From positions 1-19,410 of the forward strand of contig NJBP01000044.1 of assembly GCA_005223085.1 (NCBI GenBank): a stretch of 19,410 nt of DNA, written 5' to 3'. This stretch comes from Candidatus Aerophobetes bacterium Ae_b3b (GTDB taxonomy: Bacteria; Aerophobota; Aerophobia; Aerophobales; AE-B3A). Position numbers and translations under genes: made by a program. Shown piece after piece: positions 1 to 17,859 of the stretch (positions are counted from its first letter, which is position 1; each line of letters opens with the position of its first letter). The notes under the pieces are model-generated. The model was given only the letters and a program-made list of their open reading frames with translations, had not been told where the DNA came from and did not search any database.

Positions 1-851
1 TTCATCTGAATAGGGGTGAGGAAAACGTCTAGAGCCCCTTCATGGAATAATCTATCTACTATGTGCTCGTAGAGCTCGGGATTCATGTCATCAATATTAG
101 TTTGAATTAAAGAGACTACATCCTCCTGGTAAGCTTTTCTTATTACCCCTATCGACACTCTCAACAAATTAGGGATGGTAAGGTCTCTTTGCCCGGCTCC
201 ATAGCCAATATGCTCTATTTTCATAGGAGGCATCTGGCCAAAGTTTTCAGCTAGATTACTAATAATAGCTGCTCCGGTAGGGGTAACCAGCTCGGCCTCG
301 ATATCGCTGCCATAAACAGGAACCTCTTTTAACAGCTCCAAAGTTGCCGGAGCCGGTAGCGGTAGGATGCCATGGCTACATTTTACGAAGCCTTTACCGA
401 GAGGTAAAGGGGAAGAATACGCCTTCCCTACACCTAAATAATTCATCCCCGCCACTGCTCCCACCACGTCAATAATCGTATCTAAACCGCCTAGTTCATG
501 AAAATGTATCTTTTGTGGGCTTTTTCCATGGATCTTGGCCTCCACGCTGGCGAGTTTGGTAAATATAGCTCGGCTCCGCTCCTTCACCTTTTTTTCCAAC
601 TTACTCTTATCCAGAATAGATAAAATATCCTCAAGTGTCCTTTCCTTTTTTTCCTCTTTAGCACCTATTTTAATTTGGGTGGAGAGAATACCCCGTTTGG
701 CCACTTTTTTTGCCTCAATCCGATAACCAAAAAGGTCTAATTTATCTAGCTCCCTTTTTAGCTCCTCTACCGGCCAGCCCAGATCGACCAATGCTCCCAG
801 CACCATATCTCCACTAATGCCGGAAAAACAGTCAAAATAGGCAGCTCTCAT
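1..851 (-). CDS. larC: LarC, nickel insertion protein for the nickel-pincer nucleotide cofactor (partial, C-terminus beyond left edge)
   Basis: LarC inserts nickel into pyridinium-3,5-bisthiocarboxylic acid mononucleotide in a CTP-dependent step, finishing the cofactor of lactate racemase and related LarA-family enzymes; it acts in the cytoplasm. Reading the minus strand from the ATG at 851-849 gives the family's N-terminal signature (YFDCFSGISGDMVLGALVDLG), then HFHELGGLDTIIDVVGA, the TPTGAAI segment and TNIDDMNPE near codon 250. About 283 codons are open to the left edge, so the C-terminal part is missing from the window. I saw no frameshift in this part; the larC of Lactiplantibacillus plantarum is known to need a programmed one. 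The start overlaps the larB stop as ATGA, so the two are probably translationally coupled. The larE-larB-larC order supports the call. Confidence 0.93.
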   Translation of the reverse strand, partial: MRAAYFDCFSGISGDMVLGALVDLGWPVEELKRELDKLDLFGYRIEAKKVAKRGILSTQIKIGAKEEKKERTLEDILSILDKSKLEKKVKERSRAIFTKLASVEAKIHGKSPQKIHFHELGGLDTIIDVVGAVAGMNYLGVGKAYSSPLPLGKGFVKCSHGILPLPAPATLELLKEVPVYGSDIEAELVTPTGAAIISNLAENFGQMPPMKIEHIGYGAGQRDLTIPNLLRVSIGVIRKAYQEDVVSLIQTNIDDMNPELYEHIVDRLFHEGALDVFLTPIQM

Positions 852-1606
852 TTTTCTCTCCCCATGTGGTTAATCAAACTGGCCATATATCCAGCTCCAA
901 ATCCATTATCGATGTTGACCACTGCTATCCCGGGAGCACAGCTATTAAGCATGGTAAGAAGAGCAGAAACGCCCTTAAAGCTGGCTCCGTATCCTATGGA
1001 GGTGGGTACTGCTATGACTGGTTTACTCACCAGGCCCCCGACTACACTGGGCAGAGCTCCCTCCATACCTGCAACCACAACCAAAACGTTGGCACTAAAG
1101 AGTCTGTCTTTATTGTCAAACAGCCTGTGAATTCCAGCCACCCCTACATCGTAAAGACGATCTACTTTATTACTCATAATTTCTGCCGTCACCGCTGCCT
1201 CCTCGGCTACTGGCATATCTGCGGTTCCTCCACTCACTACCAATATAGTATGAGGGCTTACTTTTTCTTTTCTTTCCCCGAGCACGGCTATCTTTGCCTT
1301 CTCAAAATACCTCACTTCTGGCAGACTATTTTTAATAGCCTGATAAATCTCTTTATTTGCTCGCACAGCCATAACTGTCGATTTATTCTCCCTCATTCGC
1401 TCTGCAATATGGACAATCTGCTCAGGAGTCTTACCCGGGCAAAAAATTACCTCGGGATAGCTTCTTCGCAGCTCCCGATGAGTGTCAATCTTAGCAAAAC
1501 CAAGATCCTGGTAAGGAAGAACTTTTAACTTTTCTAGAGCCTCTTCCACCTTTATCTTACCTGATCTTACCTCTTTTAGCAGATCTCTGATTCGGTCTAC
1601 TTTCAC
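848..1606 (-). CDS. larB: LarB, pyridinium-3,5-biscarboxylic acid mononucleotide synthase
   Basis: LarB carboxylates the pyridinium ring of nicotinic acid adenine dinucleotide and releases AMP, the first step of nickel-pincer cofactor synthesis. The 252-aa length fits the family. The C-terminal two thirds is a PurE (AIR carboxylase)-like domain: SGGTADMPVAEEA at residues 125-137, GMEGALPSVVGGL at 180-192, PTSIGYGASFKG at 201-212 and NIDNGFGAGY at 231-240. The N-terminal FAKIDTHRELR stretch (37-47) is also typical. C223 (in NSCAPG) is in the place expected for the cysteine that forms the covalent pyridine intermediate in the Lactiplantibacillus enzyme (Cys221 there). It lies 6 bases downstream of larE and overlaps larC by 4 bases, so it is the middle gene of one operon. 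Confidence 0.95.
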   Translation of the reverse strand: MKVDRIRDLLKEVRSGKIKVEEALEKLKVLPYQDLGFAKIDTHRELRRSYPEVIFCPGKTPEQIVHIAERMRENKSTVMAVRANKEIYQAIKNSLPEVRYFEKAKIAVLGERKEKVSPHTILVVSGGTADMPVAEEAAVTAEIMSNKVDRLYDVGVAGIHRLFDNKDRLFSANVLVVVAGMEGALPSVVGGLVSKPVIAVPTSIGYGASFKGVSALLTMLNSCAPGIAVVNIDNGFGAGYMASLINHMGREK

Positions 1607-1612
1607 TCTGAT

Positions 1613-2419
1613 TCACCTTTTTTCTAAAACCTCATTCATGCTTCCTGGGCGATAGCCTTCTAGATCAAGTGTAACGTAAGTATATCCTAATCTTTTAAGT
1701 TTATCGATTATCAGCCTTACCATATTTTCCTGCCAGAATAAGCTCATTTCTTCGTGGGCTACCTCGATTCTAGCTATCCCATCATGGTCTCTTATCCTTA
1801 GCTGTCTTATTCCTAGGCCCTTTAAAAATCTTTCCCCCTCATCAATTCTTTTTAATTTTTCTCTGGTTATTCTAGTTCCGTAAGGGATTCGTGAAGCTAG
1901 ACAGGCTAAAGAAGGTTTATTCCAGGTAGGTAGGTTCATTTTATGAGAGAGGCTGCGAATTTCCTCTTTGGTTAAACGAGCCTCCTTTAAAGGACTTTTT
2001 ATACCAAGTTCTTGCCCAGCCTGCCTCCCTGGACGAAAATCAGCCAGGTCATCATAATTGGAAGCATCCGCTACATAGTTTAAACCTTGTCCTTTGGCTA
2101 TCTTATTTAATCTGGAAAACAATTCTCGTTTGCAAAAATAGCATCTTTGAGGAGAATTCTTGAAAAAATCTTGTTTCGATAGCTCCTCTGTCTGGATGAC
2201 GAGATGCTTAACGCCTAATTTTCGAGCTATCTTCTTGGCTGCCTCCAGTTCGGAAGCTGGGTAAGTTTCTGAGCTTGCTGTGGCTGCTACTATCCTTTTT
2301 CCAAGTACATCATGAGCAACCTTAAGAAGGAAAGTACTATCTACTCCCCCGGAGAAAGCGATGAGAACGCTTCCCATATTAGATAAGATTTTTTTGAGGC
2401 TGACTAGTTTTTCCTCCAC
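1613..2419 (-). CDS. larE: LarE, ATP-dependent sulfurtransferase (three-cysteine type)
   Basis: LarE adenylates the carboxylates of the pyridinium intermediate and turns them into thiocarboxylates. The 268-aa protein has the PP-loop ATP-binding motif SGGVDS at residues 23-28. C93 and C96 (RCYFCKRE) plus C173 (SLACLASRIPYGTRIT) form the three-cysteine set. Family knowledge: some LarE proteins sacrifice one cysteine per sulfur, whereas three-cysteine forms such as that of Thermotoga maritima bind a [4Fe-4S] cluster that can carry the extra sulfur; this protein should be the latter kind. The start is GTG: an in-frame TGA lies seven codons upstream and no ATG fits, and AAGGGG sits about 6 bases before it. 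It is the first gene of the lar operon, behind a good promoter. Confidence 0.95.
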   Translation of the reverse strand: MEEKLVSLKKILSNMGSVLIAFSGGVDSTFLLKVAHDVLGKRIVAATASSETYPASELEAAKKIARKLGVKHLVIQTEELSKQDFFKNSPQRCYFCKRELFSRLNKIAKGQGLNYVADASNYDDLADFRPGRQAGQELGIKSPLKEARLTKEEIRSLSHKMNLPTWNKPSLACLASRIPYGTRITREKLKRIDEGERFLKGLGIRQLRIRDHDGIARIEVAHEEMSLFWQENMVRLIIDKLKRLGYTYVTLDLEGYRPGSMNEVLEKR

Positions 2420-5222: not shown

Positions 5223-5442
5223 GAGCTTTCGCCGAAAAGACGGTCAAAGGGAGAGTATCTGTAGATACTTAAAGCCTGTCGTGAGAATGGCAACATTCAC
5301 CAATATGTTTTCCCATCCGCGGTAATTCATCGTTCTGGACCACCGACGAAAATCAAAAAGACGGCCAGAAAAAAGTGAGACAAGATAACCTCACCTTGAT
5401 GCAGCGCAGAGAAAGCCAAACAGTTTGAGGAGCAGAAAGCCC

Positions 5443-6453
5443 ATGAAGCATTTCAAGGTTGTTGTTACTGATTACCCGACACAGTATGATTTTCAGGTAG
5501 AAAAGGAGATTCTCGCCGTAATCGGTGCAGAACTCTACACCGTCGATTGTCGAACAGAACAAGAAGTGCTCGATTGTTGTCAGGATGCCGATGCGGTGAT
5601 GACGGTGTATGCCCCAGTGGGTGCACGTGCGGTTGGGGCGTTTAGCCGGTGCAGGATTATCGCGCGTTATGGCGTCGGCGTAGATAATATAGATATCCCT
5701 GCGGCAACCAGACGGGGCATTGTGGTTGTAAATGTACCCGATTACTGCATGTATGAAGTTGCTCTGCATACTGTATCTTTAGTGCTCTGCCTCAGTCGGA
5801 GAATCCTCATCTTACATCACGAGGTAACCGTGAGGCACAATTGGGATGTTGCGGCAGCCAAACCCGTCTTTCGCCTGAAAGGACAGACCCTGGGTCTCGT
5901 GGGCTTTGGTAGGATTGCACAGGTTGTGGCTGACTTGGTAAAGGGCTTTGATTTGTCTATTCTTGCCTTTGATCCCTATGTCAACCGTGACGTTGCTGAG
6001 GTTCGCGGAGTTCAGCTGGTCGAGCTCGAAGACCTCTTGGTGCGCTCGGATTTTGTCTCCGTTCATGCGCCCCTTACCGCCGAAACCAAATACCTGATTG
6101 GAAAATCTGAATTACAAAAAATGAAGCCCACGGCATTTCTCATTAACACAGCAAGAGCAGCAATTGTCGATCAAAAGGTACTGTACCAGGCTCTCAAAAA
6201 TGGCTGGATCGCTGGTGCGGGATTGGACGTTCTGGAAGAGGAACCACCCAAAGAGAGTAATCCCTTGCTCAGCTTGGATAATGTGGTCATTACGCCCCAT
6301 GCCGCCTCCTATTCGATACAATCCTACCAGGAGGTACGCGAAAGGGCTACCCAGGAAGTTGTTCGGGTTCTTTCCGGCAAGTGGCCCAGGCCGATCGCAT
6401 TTCTTAATCCTGAGGTTAAGAACCGCGTATGGTGGGCAAAAAGCAACCATTAA
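5443..6453 (+). CDS. NAD-dependent D-2-hydroxyacid dehydrogenase (SerA/CtBP-like family)
   Basis: Enzymes of this family reduce 2-oxo acids to D-2-hydroxy acids or run the reverse with NAD(P); members include D-phosphoglycerate, glyoxylate and D-lactate dehydrogenases. The 336-aa protein has the substrate domain at residues 1-~100 (VVVTDY.., YGVGVDNIDI, VPDYCMYEVALHT), the Rossmann glycines GLVGFGRIAQ at 151-160, and the catalytic set R238 (NTARAAIVD), E267 (DVLEEEPP) and H286 (TPHAAS). The frame is open from a TTG at 5425, but GAGGAG at 5427-5432 sits 10 bases before the ATG at 5443, which also matches the family start. Arginine codons are mostly CGN (13 of 21 by hand count), unlike the preceding genes. 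It converges on the UroD-family gene, with 18 bases between stops. Exact substrate cannot be told. Confidence 0.9.
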   Translation: MKHFKVVVTDYPTQYDFQVEKEILAVIGAELYTVDCRTEQEVLDCCQDADAVMTVYAPVGARAVGAFSRCRIIARYGVGVDNIDIPAATRRGIVVVNVPDYCMYEVALHTVSLVLCLSRRILILHHEVTVRHNWDVAAAKPVFRLKGQTLGLVGFGRIAQVVADLVKGFDLSILAFDPYVNRDVAEVRGVQLVELEDLLVRSDFVSVHAPLTAETKYLIGKSELQKMKPTAFLINTARAAIVDQKVLYQALKNGWIAGAGLDVLEEEPPKESNPLLSLDNVVITPHAASYSIQSYQEVRERATQEVVRVLSGKWPRPIAFLNPEVKNRVWWAKSNH

Positions 6454-6471: not shown

Positions 6472-7641
6472 TCACGATATCGGATACCCGCCGTATTCAT
6501 ACGCAGCATCGTACATGGCTACAATATTCTCTGGCGGGACATCGGGCTCAAAACTGTGAGCCGGTCCTAAAATATAGGCGCCGCCGGGGGCGTAGGTTTT
6601 TATGGTATGTCTAACCGCCTCTTTGATCTCGTCCGGTGTTCCGTTGCACAAAAGCTCCTGGGTGTCAATCCCTCCACAAAAGGTGAGGTCTTTACCGAAT
6701 TCCTTTTTGAGTCGCCAGGGTTCCATATGCTTAGCTAATGGCTGCACGGGATTTAAGATTTCCACCCCGTTCTCAATGAAATCCGGGATAACCTCATACA
6801 CTGAACCGCAGCTATGTCGGTAGATTTTTGCACTCGTATATTTCTTGATGTGGGCAATCATCTTCTTTTCATACGGCTTAATGAAGGTAACATAATCTTT
6901 GCGAGAGCAGAGAAGACCATTTTGAGTGCCCATATCACCGTAGGTAGCAACGATGTCCACGTAATCACCAAGGGGTCCGATGAAATGCTCCACAATCCCA
7001 AACCCCACTTCTAGGAGCCTGTCGGCAAGCGCAAAGAAAAAGTCCGGATCTAATTTCATGTCCAGAAAGAACTTGTCCCATCCACTGAGCAGGGCATACA
7101 TCAAGAAAGGAAAGGCCAGAAGATTATCGACGACGATAACATAATTGGTGTTTTCTCTCAAATCCTTAGCTTCCTCTATTTTGCCCACAGAAAGTTTATG
7201 AAAATCATTAGGGGAGGGCCAGTATGGGTAGTGTTTGAGCTCCTTCTTGCTCATACACTGCTTGAGAGGAAAATAAAATACGTCATCGAAATAACCCATT
7301 TTTTTTACCCTCAAACCGCAATATACTCCCAAAACGGTTTTTGTTCCGTCAGCCTTCACCACAACTTCCGGAGCATTAGGGTCTATCCGCCTAAAATCAG
7401 AGTGAAACCGTTGGATTACCCGCTCATCAATATTCATTACCGAGTTGAAGGCAAAAGAAAGCTTCGGCTTCTCGTAATTCTTTATTCCTAGATAGTGGCA
7501 GAGCTTGGTATAGTTCTTCCCATCGGGCGGACACTCTAAGATGTCGGTAGAAAGTGTGGCCCCAAAAATAATCGGGACTCGATCCGGTTCTTGGTGACCA
7601 ATTGCAGTAAGAACCCTTTCTCGTGAAGTACATTCTTTCAT
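6472..7641 (-). CDS. Uroporphyrinogen decarboxylase (URO-D) family protein, methyltransferase-like
   Basis: The 389-aa protein belongs to the URO-D superfamily branch that includes zinc methyltransferases acting on corrinoid proteins (MtaA/CmuA type) and many uncharacterised members. Visible signs are the opening SRERVLTAIGHQEPDRVP, the central GDMGTQNGLLCSRKDYVTFIKPY (residues ~235-257), a likely zinc set H276-x-C278 (RHSCGS) with C322 (FCGGID), and the closing GGAYILGPAHSFEPDVPPENIVAMYDA. The H-x-C...C set argues against heme synthesis and for a methyl- or thiol-related reaction. It follows the ABC permease gene by 108 bases on the same strand, so its substrate may be what the importer brings in; genes of this type often sit beside sugar ABC transporters in anaerobes. 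Real substrate unknown. Confidence 0.85.
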   Translation of the reverse strand: MKECTSRERVLTAIGHQEPDRVPIIFGATLSTDILECPPDGKNYTKLCHYLGIKNYEKPKLSFAFNSVMNIDERVIQRFHSDFRRIDPNAPEVVVKADGTKTVLGVYCGLRVKKMGYFDDVFYFPLKQCMSKKELKHYPYWPSPNDFHKLSVGKIEEAKDLRENTNYVIVVDNLLAFPFLMYALLSGWDKFFLDMKLDPDFFFALADRLLEVGFGIVEHFIGPLGDYVDIVATYGDMGTQNGLLCSRKDYVTFIKPYEKKMIAHIKKYTSAKIYRHSCGSVYEVIPDFIENGVEILNPVQPLAKHMEPWRLKKEFGKDLTFCGGIDTQELLCNGTPDEIKEAVRHTIKTYAPGGAYILGPAHSFEPDVPPENIVAMYDAAYEYGGYPIS

Positions 7642-7749: not shown

Positions 7750-8586
7750 TCATTCTTTGACCGCCCCCGCGGTGAGCCCCTGGATGATGTACTTTTGGCC
7801 CAGGAGATACATAGTTAATATCGGAATCAACATTAAGACTGCTCCAGCCATGAGCTCACCCCACAGGTATACATCTCCCAGGATTCTTTCTGAAAGCCAC
7901 ATAGGTGTGGTCTTCTTTGATTCGGTACTTATGAACGTGAAGGCATAGAGCAGTTCATTCCAGCTCAACAGGAAACAATAAACGGTGGCTGTTATCACCC
8001 CCGGGAGAGCTACGGGAAGAATCACCCGAAAAAGTGCTCCTATCCTCCCACAGCCGTCTATTCGTGCCGCCTCTTCCAGCTCTCGGGGAATAGTGCTGAA
8101 ATATCCGGTGAGAAGCCAAGTCGCAAAAGGAACGCCAAATACAGGATATACGAGTATTAAAGAAGAGAGTTTATCCGTCAGGCCAAAAAAGTTAATCACA
8201 ATCAGTAAAGGAATGAACAGTACCGCTGCAGGAAAAAGGTAGACAAACAAGATCATTTGACTGACTGCCTGACGTCCTTTATAACGAAAGTGGGATAAGC
8301 TATACGCGGCTAGTATGGCGATCAGCATCGAAAAGCCGGTTGCAGACATGGCAACCATCAAGCTATTTTTGTAGTACACAGAGAGCCCTTCCTTTACTAT
8401 ATTAACATAATGGCCAAGATACAGGGTGCGGGGAAAAAAAGTGGGGGTACGGCTATAAATCTCAGCGGTGGTTTTTAGTGAAGTAAGAATCATCCAGTAC
8501 AAGGGAAAAGCAATGATAAAGACGAGCATACCGAGGCCGAAACAGAAAAAGATTCGCCCCAGAGGCTTCCTGGTTCTTAGTGACAT
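7750..8586 (-). CDS. Sugar-type ABC transporter permease (MalG/LacG-like)
   Basis: Second inner-membrane permease of a CUT1-type carbohydrate importer. About six hydrophobic segments are visible, the first being FCFGLGMLVFIIAFPLYWMIL after a basic N-terminus. The cytoplasmic EAA loop that docks the ATPase reads ELEEAARIDGCGRIGALFRVILPVALPG, at residues ~169-196. At 278 aa it matches the family. Two GTG codons lie just upstream in frame, but AGAGAGG is about 10 bases before the ATG at 8586, which I take as the start; the GTG at 8592 is the alternative. It is 7 bases from the stop of the partner permease, so the pair are coupled. No ATPase gene follows. Confidence 0.93.
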   Translation of the reverse strand: MSLRTRKPLGRIFFCFGLGMLVFIIAFPLYWMILTSLKTTAEIYSRTPTFFPRTLYLGHYVNIVKEGLSVYYKNSLMVAMSATGFSMLIAILAAYSLSHFRYKGRQAVSQMILFVYLFPAAVLFIPLLIVINFFGLTDKLSSLILVYPVFGVPFATWLLTGYFSTIPRELEEAARIDGCGRIGALFRVILPVALPGVITATVYCFLLSWNELLYAFTFISTESKKTTPMWLSERILGDVYLWGELMAGAVLMLIPILTMYLLGQKYIIQGLTAGAVKE

Positions 8587-8593
8587 CACCACA

Positions 8594-9460
8594 TCACCTC
8601 TCTCTCAATACTATTCTCGACGTTATCAGAATTAACCCTACAAGAAGAGGAAATACCATTACGGAAAACGTAATGGCCTGTCCGATATGTTGACCTCTAA
8701 TGCCGATCTCATAGACAAAGGGCACCATGATCATACTATGATACCCTGGGCCTCCTCTGGTCAAAAGATACACGATCTCAAAATCATTAAACGTCCAGAT
8801 GGTAGAAAGAAGTATCGCAATCATGGCGATACTTCTTAGTGCCGGCAGCGTCACGTACAAGAAACACTGAAACGTGTTAGCCCCGTCAATTTTAGCTGCC
8901 TCATATGACTGTCCAGGAACGCTCTGGAGTCCAGCTAACAGAAGAATGCCAAAAAAGGGAAATCCTCTCCAGACATTGACCGCAATAACTGAACCAAGGG
9001 CTAATGAACTACTTGAAAGCCACGGGACCGGACCTACGTTTATCCGCACCAGAAAGAAGTTAAAGACACCAACTAAATCATCATATAGCCATCGCCACGT
9101 AAAGCAGGTCACTACGGTGGGAAGAATCCAAGGAATCAACAAAAAACCCCGAAAGAAATTTCTCCCCCGAAAATCCCGGTTTAAAAGAAGTGCTGCTCCT
9201 AACCCCAGAACAAACTTCAAAGTAATTGACACAGACGTATAAACAAGTGTGTTTTTGAGGACTTTGAAAAAATCTGGATTTCTCAGCCAATAGATGTAAT
9301 TACCCAGTCCGATAAATTCCGCCGGCATCCCGATGTTCTTTTTCTGAAAGCTGAGCCAGATGTTAATAAAAAAGGGAAATAGGATCATCCCCATGACATA
9401 AAAAAACACTGGTAAAATAAGGATGACTCCTAATCTTCGTTCCTCGGTACCGACTTTCAC
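8594..9460 (-). CDS. Sugar-type ABC transporter permease (MalF/UgpA-like)
   Basis: First permease of the same CUT1-type importer. The 288-aa protein starts with a hydrophobic segment (LGVILILPVFFYVMGMILFPFF) and has six likely membrane segments. The EAA loop is SYEAAKIDGANTFQCFLYVTLPAL (residues ~185-208), the ATPase-contact signature. The start codon is GTG, with no strong ribosome site in front (AGTGAG about 15 bases upstream); an ATG start is absent nearby. It is separated from the binding-protein gene by 114 bases that contain a strong hairpin, so it is probably expressed at a lower level than the binding protein. Confidence 0.92.
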   Translation of the reverse strand: MKVGTEERRLGVILILPVFFYVMGMILFPFFINIWLSFQKKNIGMPAEFIGLGNYIYWLRNPDFFKVLKNTLVYTSVSITLKFVLGLGAALLLNRDFRGRNFFRGFLLIPWILPTVVTCFTWRWLYDDLVGVFNFFLVRINVGPVPWLSSSSLALGSVIAVNVWRGFPFFGILLLAGLQSVPGQSYEAAKIDGANTFQCFLYVTLPALRSIAMIAILLSTIWTFNDFEIVYLLTRGGPGYHSMIMVPFVYEIGIRGQHIGQAITFSVMVFPLLVGLILITSRIVLRER

Positions 9461-9504
9461 TAGTTATGTTTTACTCACTTCGCTGATGTTAATAAAAATA
9501 ACTG

Positions 9505-9541
9505 CGGAGGAGTAGCCCTGTGTATAGAGGCTACTCCTCCG
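9505..9541 (-). terminator. Hairpin between binding-protein and permease genes (leaky terminator or mRNA stabiliser)
   Basis: A perfect 13-base inverted repeat, CGGAGGAGTAGCC at 9505-9517 and GGCTACTCCTCCG at 9529-9541, has an 11-base loop. In the direction of transcription (minus) it is followed by CAGTTATTTTTATT, a broken T-run. This suits partial termination or 3'-end protection of the upstream binding-protein message while letting some transcripts through to the permeases. Confidence 0.65.
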
Positions 9542-9574
9542 TCACTCCGGTCTTTCATGCGTTACGCACACTTT

Positions 9575-10867
9575 CTATTCCCAGCGTGCATAGATCCCTT
9601 TGGCCTTTTCAAAACCCCACTCAAGGGCTTGTTCGGAAGTCCACCCCTCTACAATGACTTTCTGGATCATGTCCGACAGAACATAACCGGCGAAAATCTC
9701 GCCGGCCGCTGCAGTGGGAGGTCCGGGCCATCCTTCGTAAACTCCATATTTTGCACCCATTTCCGCAAATGCTTTCTTATAAGGATCTTTCCAGAAGGGA
9801 TTGTCCAGTAAAGCCGGATATACAGGTTGGATTTGGCCTCCCGCCTGCTCGATCCATCCCTGATACCGGACGGGCTCCATTATGAACTTAATGAGCTCTT
9901 TAGCAATCTCGGGGTATCGTGTTGCTTTGTTTGCCACAATGGCATGAGGGGAGACGTCACTAAACCTTCCTGCAGGACCTTCAGGGATGGGCGTAATCGC
10001 GGTGTTTTCTAGTAGAGCTGGGTCATTCTGCCTCATGTAATTGTATACACTGGCAGTGTTCTGTATCCCGGCAGCCCATTTTGTTTGATAAGCCCTGTTG
10101 TTACTGCCATCATCCCAGGAAGCAATCCCGCGGGGCATAATGCCCTCTTCGACCAAACCGGCTATATACTTGACCGCCTCCAGGGTTTCCTCCGATTTTA
10201 AGACCAGATTTCCCTCCTTATCCGCTACTGACCCTCCGTAAGACCAGATAACAGTGTTAATAAATTTCTCTCCGTCCGTCGCCGGCCTTCCCAGGGCGGT
10301 GGCAAATCCGTAAAATGAGCCTCCCTCGGTAATTTTTTTTGCCGTATCCTTGAGCTGATCCCACGTGTCAGGAACTGATAATCCCAGATTTGCCAGAATA
10401 TCCTTTCTCCAATAATGAGCTTCTGCACTACTATGCAGTGGAAGACCAATCTTCCTCCCTTCTGCGGTAACAGCGTCGCTTAGCATGGGCGACAAAAGAG
10501 ATTTTGCATTCATTTCACTAAACACATCCGTAATATCGAGCAGTATCCCCATATGCTCAAACTGAATAATGTTACTGATCCACATTTCGGATACATCTGG
10601 AAAAGTTTTGGCTTCTACCGAGGCCATCCATTTCCGAAACAGCTCTTCCGCGGGAATGAAACTAACGTTTACTTTTACTCCCTTGCTCTGCTCAAATTCT
10701 TTTATCTGGTTGGCCATATACGCGTTCTGTTCTTTGACAAAAGACCTCCAGAACCACACGTTCAAAGTTGGCTTTTCTTGGGCTAGTACGGAAATGAACT
10801 GCCCTAGCACTACGAAGACGACAACAGTACTTATGAGAAGACAACCCCATTTCTTCTTTTGAACCAT
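9575..10867 (-). CDS. Extracellular solute-binding protein of the sugar-type ABC importer (family 1)
   Basis: Binds the ligand outside the inner membrane and hands it to the two permeases. The 430-aa precursor has a signal peptide: KKK near the start, a hydrophobic core (CLLISTVVVFVVLGQFIS) and a likely cut after VLA-QE at about residue 29. I see no lipobox. The mature part starts TLNVWFWRS and carries KGVKVNVSFIPAEE, PDVSEMW and TAITPIPEGPAGR, all usual for family 1 binding proteins. The ribosome site AAGGGAGGAGGG lies close before the ATG at 10867. First gene of a minus-strand operon with two permeases and a URO-D-family gene. The aromatic-rich N-terminus (WFW) fits sugar binding, but the ligand cannot be told. 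Confidence 0.93.
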   Translation of the reverse strand: MVQKKKWGCLLISTVVVFVVLGQFISVLAQEKPTLNVWFWRSFVKEQNAYMANQIKEFEQSKGVKVNVSFIPAEELFRKWMASVEAKTFPDVSEMWISNIIQFEHMGILLDITDVFSEMNAKSLLSPMLSDAVTAEGRKIGLPLHSSAEAHYWRKDILANLGLSVPDTWDQLKDTAKKITEGGSFYGFATALGRPATDGEKFINTVIWSYGGSVADKEGNLVLKSEETLEAVKYIAGLVEEGIMPRGIASWDDGSNNRAYQTKWAAGIQNTASVYNYMRQNDPALLENTAITPIPEGPAGRFSDVSPHAIVANKATRYPEIAKELIKFIMEPVRYQGWIEQAGGQIQPVYPALLDNPFWKDPYKKAFAEMGAKYGVYEGWPGPPTAAAGEIFAGYVLSDMIQKVIVEGWTSEQALEWGFEKAKGIYARWE

Positions 10868-11188: not shown

Positions 11189-11956
11189 ATGAAGTCCGTA
11201 GAGAAGGCCATAGAAATTCTGGAGGCTTTGGCTAAAAGAGAGAATGGGATAGGAATAACTCAGTTAAGTCGAGAGCTGGACCTACCAAAGAGCACCATTC
11301 ATCAAATTCTCTCCACCCTTAAAAGCGTAAGATTCGCAGAGCAAAATCCCGAGGATAGAAAATATCATTTGGGACTCCGGATTTTCGAGCTGGGCAACAT
11401 TTTTCAATCGCAACTTCAACTTAGAAAAATAGCCTATTCTTACTTGTATAATATAAGCGGAAAGACCAATGAGACAACCTACCTGGTAGTTCTGAAAGAT
11501 AACAGGACAGTTTACATAGACTGCGTGGAGTCAACGGCAAGGCTGAGGGCGCATCCTCTTTTTGGAATAAGAGTTCCTCTTCATTGTACCGGCGTGGGTA
11601 AAGCCATAATGGCCTTTTTGCCGGAGCAGAAAATAAATGAAATTATCCATGAAGATGGGTTAGAAAGATTTACCGAAAATACTATTACTGATCCCCAGAT
11701 ACTTAAACGAGAGCTAAAGGAAATTAGGAAAAGAGGATATGCAATTGATAATATGGAACATGCGGAGGGGATTCGCTGTGTGGGTGCCCCTATAAGAAAT
11801 CATCGAAAGGAAGTTTTTGCTGCCATCAGTGTTTCTGGTCCTTCTCAGAGATTTGATCCTCCAAGGATACCGGCTATAGCTAAATTGGTTATTGAAGCAT
11901 CTGAGGAAATTTCAAGAAAAATGGGCTATAAAAAACAAAATATGCCTGAGGCCTAA
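11189..11956 (+). CDS. IclR-family transcriptional regulator
   Basis: IclR proteins control carbon-source genes and sense small carboxylic acids or sugar acids through a C-terminal GAF-like domain. The 255-aa protein starts with SVEKAIEILEAL and a winged helix-turn-helix (residues ~22-50: ITQLSRELDLPKSTIHQILSTL), then EDRKYHLGLRIFELG. The effector domain shows HCTGVGKAIMAFLP (~132-145), RKRGYAIDNMEHAEGIRCVGAPI, and VFAAISVSGP. No clear Shine-Dalgarno precedes the ATG because the palindrome occupies that space; the start matches the family exactly. It is divergent from the ABC importer and 98 bases upstream of the TRAP genes in the same direction, so it may control both. Ligand unknown, but likely related to the TRAP or ABC substrate. 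Confidence 0.94.
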   Translation: MKSVEKAIEILEALAKRENGIGITQLSRELDLPKSTIHQILSTLKSVRFAEQNPEDRKYHLGLRIFELGNIFQSQLQLRKIAYSYLYNISGKTNETTYLVVLKDNRTVYIDCVESTARLRAHPLFGIRVPLHCTGVGKAIMAFLPEQKINEIIHEDGLERFTENTITDPQILKRELKEIRKRGYAIDNMEHAEGIRCVGAPIRNHRKEVFAAISVSGPSQRFDPPRIPAIAKLVIEASEEISRKMGYKKQNMPEA

Positions 11957-12054: not shown

Positions 12055-13059
12055 ATGAAAGGATGGAAGATTATCGTCGTTTGTATTCTTGCAGTAGGAC
12101 TCCTGTCTTCCGCAAGTTTTGCTCAGGAGAAGACCTATACCCTCCGCTTTAACACGGTAGCCGGACCTAAGGAACCTCAGACTCAGGCTATGAACAAGTT
12201 TGCCGAAGTAGTTGAGGAGTTAAGCGCAGGTAAAATCATAGTTAAAGTTTTTCATTCTGGTGCGCTCGGAGATCAAAAGACAGCTCTTTTGGGCATTATG
12301 CGAGGGACCTTAGAGATGACCAGTGATGCCAGTCCTGCCTGGTTTGCAGAGCTCTGTGATTATCCCGAGATAGGTGTTTTAGAAACACCTTACGCCTTCA
12401 GAGATCTCGACCATCTCTATAGAGTTCTCACTGGGCCAACAGGCCGGAAGTATTGGGATGAGCTTACCAAATCTGGATTGCGAGTTCTCGACATATGGTA
12501 CCTCGGTACCCGTGAATTAAATCTGACCAAGAAAGCTGGTGTGGTGCGAAGGCCTGAAGGTCTGAAGGGAATTAAGTTAAGGATGCCCAATGTAGAAGCC
12601 TGGCTTGATGTAGGAAGAGCTCTTGGAGCAGAGCCTACACCTTTGGGATTTGGAGAGGTTTATATGGCTCTAAAAACCGGAACTGTAGATGGTCAGGACA
12701 ACCCTCTTCCCACAGACTACTCGGCAAAGTTTTGCGAAGTAACTCATTACATCATCCTTACTGACCATATGATTGGTTTTATCACACCGGTAATCAACGA
12801 AAAGCTGTGGCAGAGTATGCCTGAAAAGTATCGGGTTTATATCAAAAAAGCTATACAGGTGGCTCGATTCTACCAGAACAGAATAGTACTGGAACAAGAG
12901 GCTAAACTCCTAGGGAAGTTTGTAAAGGATTATGGAATGGAAATAATCATCCCGGACAAGCAAGCTTTCATGGAAAATGTCAAAAAGTTCTACAGCCAGC
13001 CCAAGTTCGATAAAAAGTGGGGGAAAGGGATTTACGCCAAGATTCAAGCTATAGAATAG
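12055..13059 (+). CDS. dctP: TRAP transporter solute-binding protein (DctP family)
   Basis: The periplasmic receptor of a TRAP importer, which uses ion gradients to take up organic acids. The 334-aa precursor has a signal peptide (MKGWKIIVVCILAVGLLSSASFA) with a likely cut before QEK at residue 24. Family marks are YTLRFNT near the mature start, FHSGALGDQK, LRMPN with R176 (the arginine that usually pins the ligand carboxylate), the segment TPLGFGEVYMALKTGTVDGQDNP (~195-217) and FITPVINEKLW. An AAAGGAGGT ribosome site lies just before the ATG at 12055, the strongest in the window, fitting a highly made protein. Aldolase and KdsB genes downstream favour a sugar acid or ulosonic acid ligand, but this is inferred. 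Confidence 0.94.
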   Translation: MKGWKIIVVCILAVGLLSSASFAQEKTYTLRFNTVAGPKEPQTQAMNKFAEVVEELSAGKIIVKVFHSGALGDQKTALLGIMRGTLEMTSDASPAWFAELCDYPEIGVLETPYAFRDLDHLYRVLTGPTGRKYWDELTKSGLRVLDIWYLGTRELNLTKKAGVVRRPEGLKGIKLRMPNVEAWLDVGRALGAEPTPLGFGEVYMALKTGTVDGQDNPLPTDYSAKFCEVTHYIILTDHMIGFITPVINEKLWQSMPEKYRVYIKKAIQVARFYQNRIVLEQEAKLLGKFVKDYGMEIIIPDKQAFMENVKKFYSQPKFDKKWGKGIYAKIQAIE

Positions 13060-13138: not shown

Positions 13139-13648
13139 ATGAGAAGGATTTTCAAGAAGATATTCGATTTGCTGGAGGTTCACCTGGCAGTCTTAATTTT
13201 TCTGGTTTTAATTTTCTCCGTGGTAATCCAGGTTTTTTCTCGATATGTCCTCAACCGACCTTTACCACGCCTCTTTGAGCTATCTATCTATAGTTTCGTC
13301 TGGGTTATCTATCTGGGTGCTCCTCTGGCAAAACGGTATAGAAGACACATTCGCTTTGATATTCTTTACCGTAAATTCCCCAGAAAAGTGCAACTCCTCA
13401 TCGATATAGGTTTTGATATATTAACCAACGCAGTGCTTCTCCTAATCTTGATTCCCAGCATAGAATACACTGCCTGGAACTACAGAATAAAAGCCTCATC
13501 TCTGCGCATACCCTGGACTTACCTTCTGGTATGCTTTCCCATATTTATTGGACTTCTTTTCATTCATAACTCTGTCTGGATCTATACTTATATACGAGAG
13601 CTTTTGGGAAAGAAGGCATCCATTAAAGAGGTTCCACCATGGCAGTAG
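13139..13648 (+). CDS. dctQ: TRAP transporter small membrane subunit (DctQ family)
   Basis: The four-helix small subunit that pairs with DctM in the inner membrane. The 169-aa protein has four hydrophobic segments: residues ~14-33 (VHLAVLIFLVLIFSVVIQVF), ~45-60, ~87-107 and ~127-150. Family marks are SRYVLNRPLPRLFELS after helix 1, the RRHIRFD segment between helices 2 and 3, and SSLRIPW before helix 4. AAGGTAAGAG before the ATG at 13139 is a modest ribosome site. The 3' end overlaps dctM by 10 bases, so the two membrane subunits are translationally coupled, as in many TRAP operons. Confidence 0.92.
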   Translation: MRRIFKKIFDLLEVHLAVLIFLVLIFSVVIQVFSRYVLNRPLPRLFELSIYSFVWVIYLGAPLAKRYRRHIRFDILYRKFPRKVQLLIDIGFDILTNAVLLLILIPSIEYTAWNYRIKASSLRIPWTYLLVCFPIFIGLLFIHNSVWIYTYIRELLGKKASIKEVPPWQ

Positions 13649-14931
13649 CTGTTTGGCTGATAGTTTTTGCCGCTGTTTTTGCTGTGGGGTATCCTATTGC
13701 TCTGGGAATGCTCATAAGTTCAGCTCTTTATTTTTTGTTATCCGACATAAGCCTCGCTACCCTTATGGATATAATGGTCATAAAATTCGAGAATCAATTT
13801 GTCCTCCTGGCTGTTCCTCTTTTTATTTTTACCGCTAAAGTTATGAATGCTGGCAAAGTAACTGACCGGGTTTTTGATTTTGCCAAAACTTTGGTGGGTC
13901 CGCTTAAAGGAGGATTGGGTCATGTGAATATTGTAGCAAGTATAATCTTTGCTGGAATGACCGGTTCTGAAATAGCTGACGTTGCTGGTCTGGGAGCTGT
14001 GGAAATTAAGGCCATGAAAGATGGAGGTTACGATGGTCCCTTTAGCTGTGCCGTTACCTGTGCTTCAGCTACCATAGGACCTATTATTCCCCCCAGTATT
14101 CCCATGGTTATTTACTCTATGCTTTCAGGTACATCAATAGGATACCTCTTTCTGGGAGGGTTTATTCCTGGGCTTATCCTGGGAGGAGTTTTGATGCTTC
14201 TGGTTTATATCATTTCCGTTAAGAGAAACTATCCTTCCGAAAAAAGGGTCTCCTTCAGGGAATTCTTGAAAAGCCTTACCAAATCTTTTCTTGCTCTTAT
14301 GGCCCCGGTACTCCTCCTGGGCGGGATCTACGGAGGGGTCTTTACTCCAACAGAGGCAGCAGGCGTAGTGAGTGCCTACGCATTAATTCTTTCCTTAGTT
14401 GTCTACCGAACAGTTGGTTTAAAAGCACTTTACAAGATTCTTATTGATACAGTAGTAAGCACCGGATTTATTACCTTTCTTATAGCCGGCGCCTTCGTAT
14501 TTGGTTATGTGATAGCAAGGGAGGAAATACCGGTTCTAATCACCAATGGTTTTATAAGTTTGGGGTTAATGGAAAGCAAGTGGACTGTACTTCTCTCTCT
14601 TAACGCACTATTTTTGATTTTGGGTTGTTTTATTGATGTTTCAGCTATTTTATTGATAATTGTACCCATTGTTCTACCTCTGGTTGAAGCTGCAGGAATC
14701 GACCTGGTTCACTTTGGAGTTATAGCTGTCTTCAATTTAATGATCGCCCTGGATACACCACCTTATGGTGAAACTATTTTTATTACCAGTGCCATCAGTG
14801 GAACTCCTTTCCCTGATGTTGTGAAGGAAATGCTGCCATTTATAGCTTTTGAAATAGGTGCCCTCATGATATGCACCTATATTCCTGACCTTGTTCTCTG
14901 GTTACCCCGATTAGCCGGTTATCTGGGGTAG
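13639..14931 (+). CDS. dctM: TRAP transporter large membrane subunit (DctM family)
   Basis: The large, roughly twelve-helix transport subunit. The 430-aa length is standard. It shows the repeated TRAP segments: LLAVPLFIFTAKVMNAGKVTDRVFDFA (~54-80), the GHVNIVASIIFAGMTGSEIADVAGLGAVEIKAM stretch (~94-126), CASATIGPIIPPSIPMVIYSM (~138-158), FTPTEAAGVVSAYAL, and near the end the PPYGETIFITSAISGTP stretch. The start overlaps dctQ, with AGAGG just upstream. Followed after 34 bases by the 406-aa gene, in line with one operon. The combination DctP-DctQ-DctM is complete, so this importer should be functional without other membrane genes. Confidence 0.95.
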   Translation: MAVAVWLIVFAAVFAVGYPIALGMLISSALYFLLSDISLATLMDIMVIKFENQFVLLAVPLFIFTAKVMNAGKVTDRVFDFAKTLVGPLKGGLGHVNIVASIIFAGMTGSEIADVAGLGAVEIKAMKDGGYDGPFSCAVTCASATIGPIIPPSIPMVIYSMLSGTSIGYLFLGGFIPGLILGGVLMLLVYIISVKRNYPSEKRVSFREFLKSLTKSFLALMAPVLLLGGIYGGVFTPTEAAGVVSAYALILSLVVYRTVGLKALYKILIDTVVSTGFITFLIAGAFVFGYVIAREEIPVLITNGFISLGLMESKWTVLLSLNALFLILGCFIDVSAILLIIVPIVLPLVEAAGIDLVHFGVIAVFNLMIALDTPPYGETIFITSAISGTPFPDVVKEMLPFIAFEIGALMICTYIPDLVLWLPRLAGYLG

Positions 14932-14965: not shown

Positions 14966-16186
14966 ATGGATATAAATCAAATTAACCATGATTTGGTGGA
15001 GCATCTTTACCAGGGTTTGGAGGAGGTTTCCAAGCAGCGAGTTGATCAAGCTATATCTAAAATAGTCCAAGCTAAAGAAAGAGGGAGAAAAGTCGTTGTG
15101 GTAACAGGAAGTGGACCAAATATACACGAAGGTGTCACCACCTTAATAGCAGAACTCATCAAGAAAAAAATTGTTGATGGTGTCATCACAAGCTCTGCTG
15201 TGATAGCTCACGAAATGGCAGGTAGTCTTGATAAGGTTAAAAGATTAGACGGTAAAAAACTGGGCATTTGTGAAGATGCGCTACCTAAGGGATCAGTATT
15301 TGAAATCACGCTTATGGATAAAGAGACACTCGAGCAGATAAAAAGGGAAATGTTGGTAGATGTTGAGCTCATAGAGAGAACCCTGGGATTACCAGGAGAT
15401 GTAATAATAAAAGCAGCAGGTAATATGGGTTATCCTATGGGTCTTAGAACAGAGAGAATTGCCCGAGAGGTGGAATCTCTTGCCAGACTAACCGGTAAAC
15501 CATTCGAGTACATATCTGGACTGGGAGCTGATGAGAGGACAATGATAGGAACAGGGGTAAGAGAGAATATCCCGGTAATAGTTTCTGCTGTCCAGTTAAT
15601 TGGGGGCGGTGTGGTAGGTCTATCCATAGGCGACAGCATTTCATTTAAACAACGAAGTGCTATGGTTGCAAGCATTTTAAATGGTGCAGATGTTATAGTT
15701 GAGTCAGGAGTGGCGCTAACACAGGAGATTCACGATGGACCTTTTGAAACATACACCGGTCATGGAATCTGGTCAGCCTGGGAGGGGGCTAAAACATTCA
15801 GCCTCAAGGGTAAAACACTGATAAGAATTGACCTCGACCCTAATTTGGAAAAGGCATGGCAAATGGAAAGAAAGGGTGGAAGTGTCCAGAAGGCTATCGA
15901 TGAAGGATTACCAAAGACAAAGTTTCTCGAGGTTCCCTTTAGAATGGAAATGTCAGGTTTCGCCCGCCTGGAGGATAGTATTCCCATAAGGGAAGATCTT
16001 GGAGTTGTCTGGCCAGTTATAACCCTTAAGGTGAGCGAGAAACTGGGAATATCTTTGGATTTTCTTTCTTATCCTCAAGAAACATCAGCTGGAAAAAAGA
16101 TGAAGGAATGGATAGTTAATAATGTAAAGATTCTTAACAGGGAACTTATGTATAAAAGGGTTAAGGAAATACAAGAAGTTAATTAG
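14966..16186 (+). CDS. Unrecognised 406-aa protein, possibly deoxyhypusine-synthase-like
   Basis: I do not recognise this gene with certainty. It is soluble in appearance, with no signal peptide or membrane segment. Residues 43-84 (VVVVTGSGPN, then VDGVITSSAVIAHEM) look like a nucleotide-binding Rossmann-type unit. Residues ~200-273 hold NIPVIVSAVQLIGGGVVGLSIGD, LNGADVIVESGVALTQEIHDGP and GHGIWSAWEGAKTF. The order of a glycine-rich turn, an I-V-D-x-x-I-T strand, then a GGG-V segment and an N-GAD-x-x-V segment ending near an SAWEG motif recalls deoxyhypusine synthases (NGADYAV, AVSWGKI in the human enzyme), which are NAD-dependent. The match is by eye and weak. A role on spermidine or eIF5A would make no sense in bacteria. 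Placed between dctM and kdsB, it is likely to act on the TRAP substrate or a product of it. Confidence 0.85.
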   Translation: MDINQINHDLVEHLYQGLEEVSKQRVDQAISKIVQAKERGRKVVVVTGSGPNIHEGVTTLIAELIKKKIVDGVITSSAVIAHEMAGSLDKVKRLDGKKLGICEDALPKGSVFEITLMDKETLEQIKREMLVDVELIERTLGLPGDVIIKAAGNMGYPMGLRTERIAREVESLARLTGKPFEYISGLGADERTMIGTGVRENIPVIVSAVQLIGGGVVGLSIGDSISFKQRSAMVASILNGADVIVESGVALTQEIHDGPFETYTGHGIWSAWEGAKTFSLKGKTLIRIDLDPNLEKAWQMERKGGSVQKAIDEGLPKTKFLEVPFRMEMSGFARLEDSIPIREDLGVVWPVITLKVSEKLGISLDFLSYPQETSAGKKMKEWIVNNVKILNRELMYKRVKEIQEVN

Positions 16187-16210: not shown

Positions 16211-16963
16211 ATGCAAGCATTGGGTGTAATTCCGGCAAGATACGGGTCCACAAGACTTGAGGGAAAACCGCTGGTTGATATTATTGGAAAACCGATGATT
16301 CAACATGTCTACGAAAATGTTACCAGATCCTCTATTCTGGATGATGTGATAGTAGCAACTGACGATTCTAAAATTAAGAAGGTCGTTGAGGGTTTTGGAG
16401 GAAAAGCAGTCTTGACTTCACCTGACTATACTACCGGGACAGATAGGGTGGCAGAAGTTGCCAGAAATCTGGATGTTCAGGTGGTAGTAAATATTCAGGG
16501 AGATGAACCATTCATTAATCCAGAGATGATAAACGAAGTTGCTGAACCACTCCTTAGAGATAAAAATATTCTTATGGGTACTCTGATGCACAAGATAAAA
16601 AACGAGGAAGATTTATCTAACCCCAATGTGGTTAAGGTAGTAACCGATAAATCAGGTTTTGCCCTGTATTTTTCCCGCTCTCTAATTCCCTATCTCCGAC
16701 ACTCTGAAGGACATCGTGCCTTCGAACACATTGGTATCTACTCTTATCAGAAAGATTTTCTTCTTAAATTTGCCGAATTGAAACCCACATCCTTGGAAAC
16801 GTCCGAGTCTCTGGAGCAATTAAGAGCATTAGAAAATGGGTATAGAATAAAAGTTGTATTGACAAAACAGAAATATATTGCTCTCAGTGTGGATACGCCT
16901 GAGGATTTAGAGAAAGCAAGGGTTTTTGCAAAATCGCTGAGAGAAAAAGAGGGAGGTTTTTAA
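16211..16963 (+). CDS. kdsB: CMP-KDO synthetase (3-deoxy-manno-octulosonate cytidylyltransferase)
   Basis: KdsB joins CTP and KDO to make CMP-KDO, the donor for the inner core of lipopolysaccharide. The 250-aa protein aligns by eye with the Escherichia coli enzyme from end to end: VIPARYGSTRLEGKPL at the start (CTP binding), SPDYTTGTDRVAEV (~70-83), NIQGDEP with D98 for magnesium, FALYFSRSLIP (150-160), HIGIYSYQKDFL (173-184), ESLEQLRALENGY (199-211) and the closing VDTPEDLEKAR with D228. All key residues are present, so it should be active. Odd is the location, between a TRAP importer and an aldolase rather than with LPS or kdsA/kdsD genes. It may be the normal housekeeping copy or act on a related ulosonic acid. 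The purine-rich AGAGAAAG precedes the ATG. Confidence 0.95.
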   Translation: MQALGVIPARYGSTRLEGKPLVDIIGKPMIQHVYENVTRSSILDDVIVATDDSKIKKVVEGFGGKAVLTSPDYTTGTDRVAEVARNLDVQVVVNIQGDEPFINPEMINEVAEPLLRDKNILMGTLMHKIKNEEDLSNPNVVKVVTDKSGFALYFSRSLIPYLRHSEGHRAFEHIGIYSYQKDFLLKFAELKPTSLETSESLEQLRALENGYRIKVVLTKQKYIALSVDTPEDLEKARVFAKSLREKEGGF

Positions 16964-16965
16964 AA

Positions 16966-17859
16966 ATGTTAACCTGGGAAGGAGTAATTGCTGCTATTGT
17001 AACATCTCTAAAAGACGAGGGGGAAAAAATCGATACCCAAGCGATGCGCTCTTACTGTGATTTCATTGTGCAAAAAGGGGTACAGGGTTTGTTTGTTGGA
17101 GGGACGACTGGCGAGGGACCACTTTTATCTTTGCAGGAACGAAAATCAATCGCTGAAACAGTAGTCGATCAGGTTAAAGGTAAAACCCGGCTAATAATCC
17201 AAACCGGATGTATCACAACTGATGAGACTATTGAGCTTACTCGACATTCCCGTAGTGTTGGAGCAGATGCAGCAGGAATAGTGCTTCCCTACTTTTATCA
17301 TTTGGATGACGATGCATTGTTTAAACATTTTTTTAAAATAGCTAATGCTGTGCCGGGATTCCCCCTTTTTATTTATAACATTCCTCAATGCACCTGTAAT
17401 AATGTGAGCCCTCGACTATTTGAAAAACTCCTTGAAAAGATAGAAAGTCTGGTGGGTATAAAAACGAGTAACCCCGATATTTTTCAAATTCAGGAATATG
17501 TGCGCCTTGCAGAAGATAGATGCTCGGTATTTGTAGGATGTGATGGCCTTATTCTGGTTGGCTTATCCGCCGGTGTGCGGGGGATAGTTTCAGGGAATGC
17601 CTCTGCCTTTCCTGAACCTTTTATAAAGATTTATCAGGCTTTTGAGAGGGGGGAGCTTGAAAAGGCTCGAGAATACCAGTTATTTATAGACAAGTTGCGA
17701 AATGTGTTGGGGGATGGGTGTTATATCGCCTCGTTTAAAAAGGCTTTGGGTTTTAGAGGGATAAAAGTTGGCAGCGTGAGAGAACCTAATAGGGAGTTTT
17801 CAGCCGAGGAAACAGCTGAGCTAAGGGAATCCTTAAGAGAACTGGGGGTAGTTCAATAG
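16966..17859 (+). CDS. DHDPS/N-acetylneuraminate lyase-family aldolase
   Basis: Class I aldolase of the DapA/NanA family, which links pyruvate to an aldehyde or splits 2-oxo-3-deoxy acids through a lysine Schiff base. The 297-aa TIM-barrel protein has GGTTGEGPLLSLQER (45-59) for the carboxylate-binding turn, the catalytic tyrosine Y137 in YNIPQCT and the Schiff-base lysine K166 in VGIKTS. GCDGLILVGLSAGVRGIVSGNAS (191-213) closes the site. The usual DapA sequence YNVPxRTG, whose arginine binds aspartate semialdehyde, is here YNIPQCTCNN, so true dihydrodipicolinate synthase is unlikely. A 2-keto-3-deoxy sugar-acid or KDO-type aldolase fits the neighbours. The ribosome site GGGAGG lies in the kdsB 3' end, and only 2 bases separate the genes. 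Confidence 0.9.
   Translation: MLTWEGVIAAIVTSLKDEGEKIDTQAMRSYCDFIVQKGVQGLFVGGTTGEGPLLSLQERKSIAETVVDQVKGKTRLIIQTGCITTDETIELTRHSRSVGADAAGIVLPYFYHLDDDALFKHFFKIANAVPGFPLFIYNIPQCTCNNVSPRLFEKLLEKIESLVGIKTSNPDIFQIQEYVRLAEDRCSVFVGCDGLILVGLSAGVRGIVSGNASAFPEPFIKIYQAFERGELEKAREYQLFIDKLRNVLGDGCYIASFKKALGFRGIKVGSVREPNREFSAEETAELRESLRELGVVQ

Follow-up and report, generated by a model that had tools for sequence, protein, structure and literature searches.

A widespread bacterial protein family with a predicted deoxyhypusine-synthase-like fold is paired with KdsB and may act in Kdo metabolism

What does a protein that resembles deoxyhypusine synthase (DHS) do in a bacterial operon for sugar acids? The question is raised by a 19,410-nucleotide stretch of contig NJBP01000044.1 of Candidatus Aerophobetes bacterium Ae_b3b (hereafter the window), in which a 406-aa protein, termed P1, is encoded between the transporter gene dctM and kdsB. 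Kdo (3-deoxy-D-manno-octulosonate) ranks among the best conserved of all outer-membrane sugars in bacteria, and its pathway is considered to be fully known. A widespread unnamed family coupled to KdsB implies an undescribed Kdo transformation. We found that P1 belongs to such an unnamed family and is best explained as a Kdo or CMP-Kdo enzyme paired with KdsB; this family-wide pairing suggests an unrecognised step of Kdo metabolism and not hypusine chemistry.

The reading frame of P1 is intact, running from an ATG at 14966 to a stop codon ending at 16186 without internal stops. It contains the motifs TGSGPN (residues 47-52), VDGVITSSAVIAHEM (70-84), GGGVVGLSIGD (213-223), LNGADVIVESG (238-248) and GIWSAWEGAKTF (267-278), all of which are conserved across the homologue alignment. 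P1 is single-copy in its own genome, and its identity to the copies in genomes G015 (72%) and G137 (52%) marks it as a real gene; G015, from the same taxonomic order, carries the same gene block. The reading frame, the motifs and the gene order dctM-406aa-kdsB given in a preliminary description were thus all borne out by the ORF check and profile searches. The features of the window are collected in Table 1.

Table 1. Features of the window that are relevant to P1, with positions counted from the first letter of the stretch
Feature	Position	Strand	Assignment or evidence
larC (partly in window)	153-641	-	nickel-pincer nucleotide biosynthesis
larB and larE	848-2419	-	nickel-pincer nucleotide biosynthesis
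IclR-family regulator	11189..11956	+	PF01614/PF09339
dctP, TRAP solute-binding protein, sugar-acid (SiaP-like) type	12055..13059	+	PF03480
dctQ, TRAP small permease	13139..13648	+	PF04290
dctM, TRAP large permease	13639..14931	+	PF06808; TIGR00786 over cut-off
P1 (406-aa protein)	14966..16186	+	uncharacterised DHS-fold family; KdsB partner
kdsB, CMP-Kdo synthetase (3-deoxy-manno-octulosonate cytidylyltransferase)	16211..16963	+	TIGR00466, 256 bits vs cut-off 155
DHDPS/N-acetylneuraminate-lyase (NAL) family aldolase	16966..17859	+	PF00701, E 1.3e-62

Because the genes are tightly spaced (34 bp from dctM to P1, 24 bp from P1 to kdsB and 2 bp from kdsB to the aldolase gene), IclR-dctP-dctQ-dctM-P1-kdsB-aldolase was read as one operon with its regulator. 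The IclR-family protein, whose homologues also occur at loci L007 (the G015 locus), L015, L063 and L081, is the probable regulator. The KdsB of the window keeps the motifs GKPL, QGDEP, FSR..IPY, HIGIY and VDT.EDL when aligned to solved KdsB enzymes, and its nearest solved structures are all KdsB. The aldolase reached none of the curated NCBIfam equivalog cut-offs, and we propose that it is a 3-deoxyulosonate (Kdo) aldolase. For DctP, the nearest solved relative is 4pf6 (Roseobacter RD1_0742), whose ligand in the crystal we take to be Kdo, with the SiaP sialic-acid binders next. The two proteins share the block LRMP..AW...ALGA.PTP..F.E.Y.AL.TG.VDGQDNPLPT; structure prediction of DctP did not reach confidence (pLDDT 46).

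The predicted structure of P1 was obtained from a 55-sequence alignment (AF2; pLDDT 94, pTM 0.93). Its best Foldseek matches were DHS (E 2e-7), and its VIA Z scores were 17.1 for the AgrE C-terminal domain (3.0 A over 217 residues, 18% identity), 16.8 for DHS and 16.5 for LOR/SDH. The distant kinship to DHS that had been proposed from sequence was therefore called correctly, since these three are the nearest solved folds, and the Pfam DS profile (PF01916) also matched P1 just above its gathering score (29.7 vs 27), over residues 24-90 only. Every more specific model remained below its cut-off on P1, including the DHS equivalog TIGR00321 (26.6 bits vs 304), TIGR00300 (19.5 vs 410.8) and the GSU2086 family model (30.7 vs 250). 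The NCBIfam DHS, AgrE/ArgZ, TIGR00300 and GSU2086 models all match the same N-terminal stretch far under their cut-offs. Weak matches recur among the 55 homologues for GSU2086 (53/55) and TIGR00300 (48/55). The significant DHS-type profile match covers only some 70 N-terminal residues, the full-length alignment being weak (E 0.007), and a PDB profile search with the family alignment returned chance matches only. P1 defines an uncharacterised bacterial family with a predicted DHS/AgrE-C fold, one that neither Pfam nor NCBIfam names separately; our literature searches found no paper on the family or on Kdo catabolic operons.

Compared with DHS (PDB 7cmc, 1dhs), P1 is alike in predicted fold over residues 8-365 and in the N-terminal nucleotide-binding motif region, and the segment around D344 lines up with that of the C-terminal aspartate in DHS. 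It differs in lacking SWGK, in its length of about 400 residues (mostly longer than DHS), in its pairing with kdsB and in falling under the equivalog cut-offs. The AgrE/ArgZ C-terminal ornithine cyclodeaminase domain and LOR/SDH (PDB 6lrg, 3c2q) gave Z scores of 17.1 and 16.5 over 217-218 residues, but at 11-18% identity, and P1 has no arginine dihydrolase domain and stands in a sugar-acid context. The GSU2086 family (NF052581) is the best NCBIfam match of most P1-family members (profile comparison probability 90%), yet it is a separate family: matches reach about 30 bits vs a cut-off of 250, and many carriers have both. At one locus a protein of this uncharacterised DHS-fold branch adjoins a heptosyltransferase-like LPS gene (L107:498-1505 and 1483-2427), and it may be another enzyme of this fold that works on LPS sugars.

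The lysine at position 276, put forward earlier as catalytic by analogy with DHS, did not hold up, being lysine in only 6/75 homologues and proline in 39/75. In a low-scoring profile alignment to seven DS-family proteins that carrier genomes encode (E 0.007 for one comparison), their conserved SWGK stretch falls on VQKAIDEGLPKTK of P1, and in both families an aspartate-containing segment follows (CDATIFLP in the DS-family proteins, EDLGVVWP in P1). On this alignment, which is weak and is not a structure superposition, K317 or K319 in GLPKTK would more plausibly take the place of the DHS lysine. Both are invariant in 75/75 homologues, as are H54, H82, H256, H266, D344, G314 and P316. In total, 45 polar, charged or tryptophan positions are invariant or nearly so, among them seven Lys/Arg residues in the C-terminal half (R230, K283, R287, K317, K319, R326 and R334) that would suit an acidic or nucleotide-bearing substrate.

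These features bear on whether P1 might act on amines. A genuine DHS was rejected, given scores far under the DHS cut-off, the lack of SWGK and the variable K276. A divergent deoxyhypusine- or homospermidine-synthase-like enzyme working on polyamines would agree with the shared fold and the marginal Pfam DS match, but we regard it as very improbable: P1 lies far under every DHS and homospermidine equivalog cut-off, it lacks the SWGK motif and a conserved K276, its neighbours are Kdo and sugar-acid genes with no polyamine family recognised in the examined neighbour clusters, and several carriers encode a separate SWGK-bearing DS-family protein. An ornithine-cyclodeaminase-like enzyme (AgrE/ArgZ-C, TIGR00300) with an amino acid or an amino sugar as its substrate is improbable as well. 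It can draw on the AgrE domain as the slightly best structural match and on the recurrent weak TIGR00300 matches, but P1 scores far under the cut-off, no amino-acid metabolism genes were recognised among the recurrent neighbours, and all 53 carrier genomes encode KdsB.

The genomic neighbourhoods point to Kdo. A scan of genome contigs gave 254 P1 relatives; the best 80, those closest to the query, were analysed and comprised 78 non-duplicate loci, assigned to many phyla. For the order dctM-406aa-kdsB highlighted in the preliminary description, the counts in these loci show kdsB in 41/78, mostly adjacent, and TRAP genes in 4-5. Among the same 78 loci, waaA was encountered in 16, NAL/DHDPS-type aldolases in 15, BNR-repeat (sialidase-like) proteins in 14, kdsD in 10, kdsA in 9, SSS symporters in 7 and YhcH in 4. 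Synergistota show the arrangement kdsA-kdsD-waaA-P1-kdsB, Desulfobacteraceae/delta and some Bacillota MAGs waaA-P1, and Planctomycetota, KSB1 and Bacteroidota kdsB-P1-BNR/GH38/GH92/NAL/SSS, a glycan-foraging type of neighbourhood, while in Aerophobetes, Spirochaetota, Atribacterota and Chloroflexota a transporter and/or aldolase accompanies P1-kdsB. The P1 tree groups by neighbourhood type, with the window protein among the transporter-type loci. For most copies in gut Bacteroidales the neighbourhood holds no Kdo gene, although KdsB is present in those genomes. The earlier idea, in which P1 was recruited to a new NAD-dependent reaction with the TRAP substrate, remains plausible but was too vague. 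The family evidence ties P1 to KdsB and Kdo also in loci without TRAP genes.

Two side observations concern transferases. In Desulfobacteraceae/delta MAGs (L067, L076, L079 and L085), P1 follows waaA and a second waaA-type gene lies elsewhere in the genome, so the P1 branch may have a Kdo transferase of its own. In Synergistota clusters an ELM1-like (PF06258) putative glycosyltransferase gene follows kdsB (L064:9964-11142, L005:8888-10060).

The coupling to KdsB was further assessed across genomes. KdsB was found in 53/53 P1-carrier genomes, among which KdsA occurred in 35/53 and a WaaA domain in 40/53. Thirteen carriers, the genome of the window among them, have neither KdsA nor WaaA; a comparison of coordinates showed that all 13 keep kdsB beside P1 or one gene away. 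Within the taxonomic order of the window, KdsB was found only in G000 and G015, both P1 carriers, and in 0/15 other genomes (Fisher exact test; p = 1/136, uncorrected for relatedness). P1 appears to require KdsB, and KdsB does not require P1, since it is common elsewhere (98/145 genomes). In the KdsB tree, the sequences linked to P1 in Planctomycetota, KSB1 and Bacteroidota group in a single supported clade, and canonical planctomycete KdsB falls outside it. Distances of P1 and of the linked KdsB correlate with r 0.90 over 41 loci, as expected of a pair that is inherited or transferred together. Capsule Kdo transferases (PF05159) were considered as CMP-Kdo users in the waaA-less carriers and rejected; matches were weak in 3/13 carriers without KdsA and WaaA and absent from the genome of the window.

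As KdsB is the sole universal partner and is kept without KdsA or WaaA, P1 would either feed KdsB or use its product. That P1 is an enzyme of Kdo metabolism acting directly beside KdsB, with an NAD-binding DHS/AgrE-C fold, is a reading to which we give even weight for and against. NAD(H) binding is predicted from the fold and the N-terminal motif similarity. The genetic context points to Kdo as the putative substrate or, given that no partner other than KdsB is universal, more probably to CMP-Kdo or to an isomer of Kdo linked to CMP. The reaction would be that of an epimerase or isomerase, a choice that the sequence does not favour over oxidation, hydrolysis or other chemistry. Hydride recycling is a property of both DHS and AgrE, and similar hydride borrowing would be the likeliest chemistry for P1: NAD+ would transiently oxidise a sugar hydroxyl, the invariant K317/K319 may act near the keto intermediate, and NADH would give the hydride back to yield an epimer or isomer. 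With P1 as a Kdo enzyme, the range of the DHS/AgrE fold would widen beyond amines and take in sugar acids.

The same KdsB and Kdo genetic evidence would equally serve another kind of Kdo-metabolic enzyme, either a dehydrogenase that depends on NAD or a CMP-Kdo hydrolase or quality-control enzyme, and the fold could accommodate net oxidation as well as elimination and hydrolysis. We hold this to be a minority possibility that deserves to be taken seriously, but the recurrent neighbour clusters examined contained no recognisable aminotransferase or oxidase dedicated to a downstream step, and both DHS and AgrE recycle their hydride. An epimerase acting on Kdo can itself be put more specifically, and here we are tentative and think it rather unlikely in full detail: P1 would be an NAD-dependent CMP-octulosonate epimerase in a Leloir-like route, with KdsB activating a Kdo isomer, either taken up or newly synthesised, and P1 interconverting the product with CMP-Kdo. 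Such an epimerase would explain why kdsB is kept beside P1 in the 13 carriers without kdsA or WaaA, and if P1 depends on the CMP ester, an activated sugar would be understandable in transporter/aldolase operons.

In the scheme proposed for the window, a Kdo-type acid would enter through the TRAP system and be interconverted and activated by P1 and KdsB; its cleavage into pyruvate and D-arabinose would fall to the NAL-type aldolase. The most informative related set is found at locus L041, in the order LacI-dctPQM-P1-kdsB-YhcH-aldolase-L-fucose isomerase (FucI)-ribulokinase, where the isomerase scores 1060 bits vs a cut-off of 850 and the ribulokinase 742 vs 583. As L-fucose isomerase also isomerises D-arabinose, this set fits a path from Kdo to pyruvate and D-arabinose, then D-ribulose and ribulose 5-phosphate. 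The family also implies a route of Kdo uptake and breakdown in bacteria that make no Kdo-LPS. Operons for sialic-acid uptake and catabolism (siaPQM-nanA-yhcH) likewise combine a TRAP transporter, a NAL-family aldolase and YhcH, as several P1 carriers do, but P1 loci add kdsB and a DHS-fold protein, and the FucI and ribulokinase of L041 point to an octulosonate. The KdnA/KdnB-KdsB pathway for 8-amino-Kdo in Shewanella also has a Kdo-modifying NAD enzyme encoded with KdsB, but no aminotransferase was recognised beside P1, and KdnA and KdnB have other folds.

Three further explanations were set aside. P1 might replace a missing KdsC phosphatase of Kdo synthesis, as the G137 cluster has kdsA, kdsD, waaA and kdsB without kdsC; this substitution was rejected as close to negligible, for KdsC lies elsewhere in the G137 genome (145 bits vs cut-off 107), P1 is kept in carriers without kdsA, and its predicted fold is that of DHS/AgrE and not a phosphatase. 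A dependence on the nickel-pincer nucleotide made by larBCE was suggested by the presence of larB, larE and larC in the same window and by the NCBIfam naming of distant DHS-fold relatives as NPN-dependent. It is highly improbable and largely refuted, as LarC exceeds its cut-off in only 27/53 carriers, leaving 26/53 where it does not, and no homologues of the window larB or larE were found in the 79 P1 loci. A phage or plasmid origin of P1 was also rejected; no relatives were found in plasmids or viral contigs, and no viral structure matched at E <= 0.001.

Upstream of the operon, the window encodes a 2-hydroxyacid dehydrogenase and a sugar ABC transporter (5425-6453 and 7750-10867), and homologues of these (30-43% identity) directly adjoin NAL-P1-kdsB-YhcH in a locus of Chloroflexi (L063), so that further genes of the pathway may lie upstream in the window. 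A URO-D-family protein (6472-7641, minus strand) adjoins the ABC transporter, and another (L025:3488-4681) was noted upstream of NAL-SSS-kdsB-P1-BNR at a planctomycete locus.
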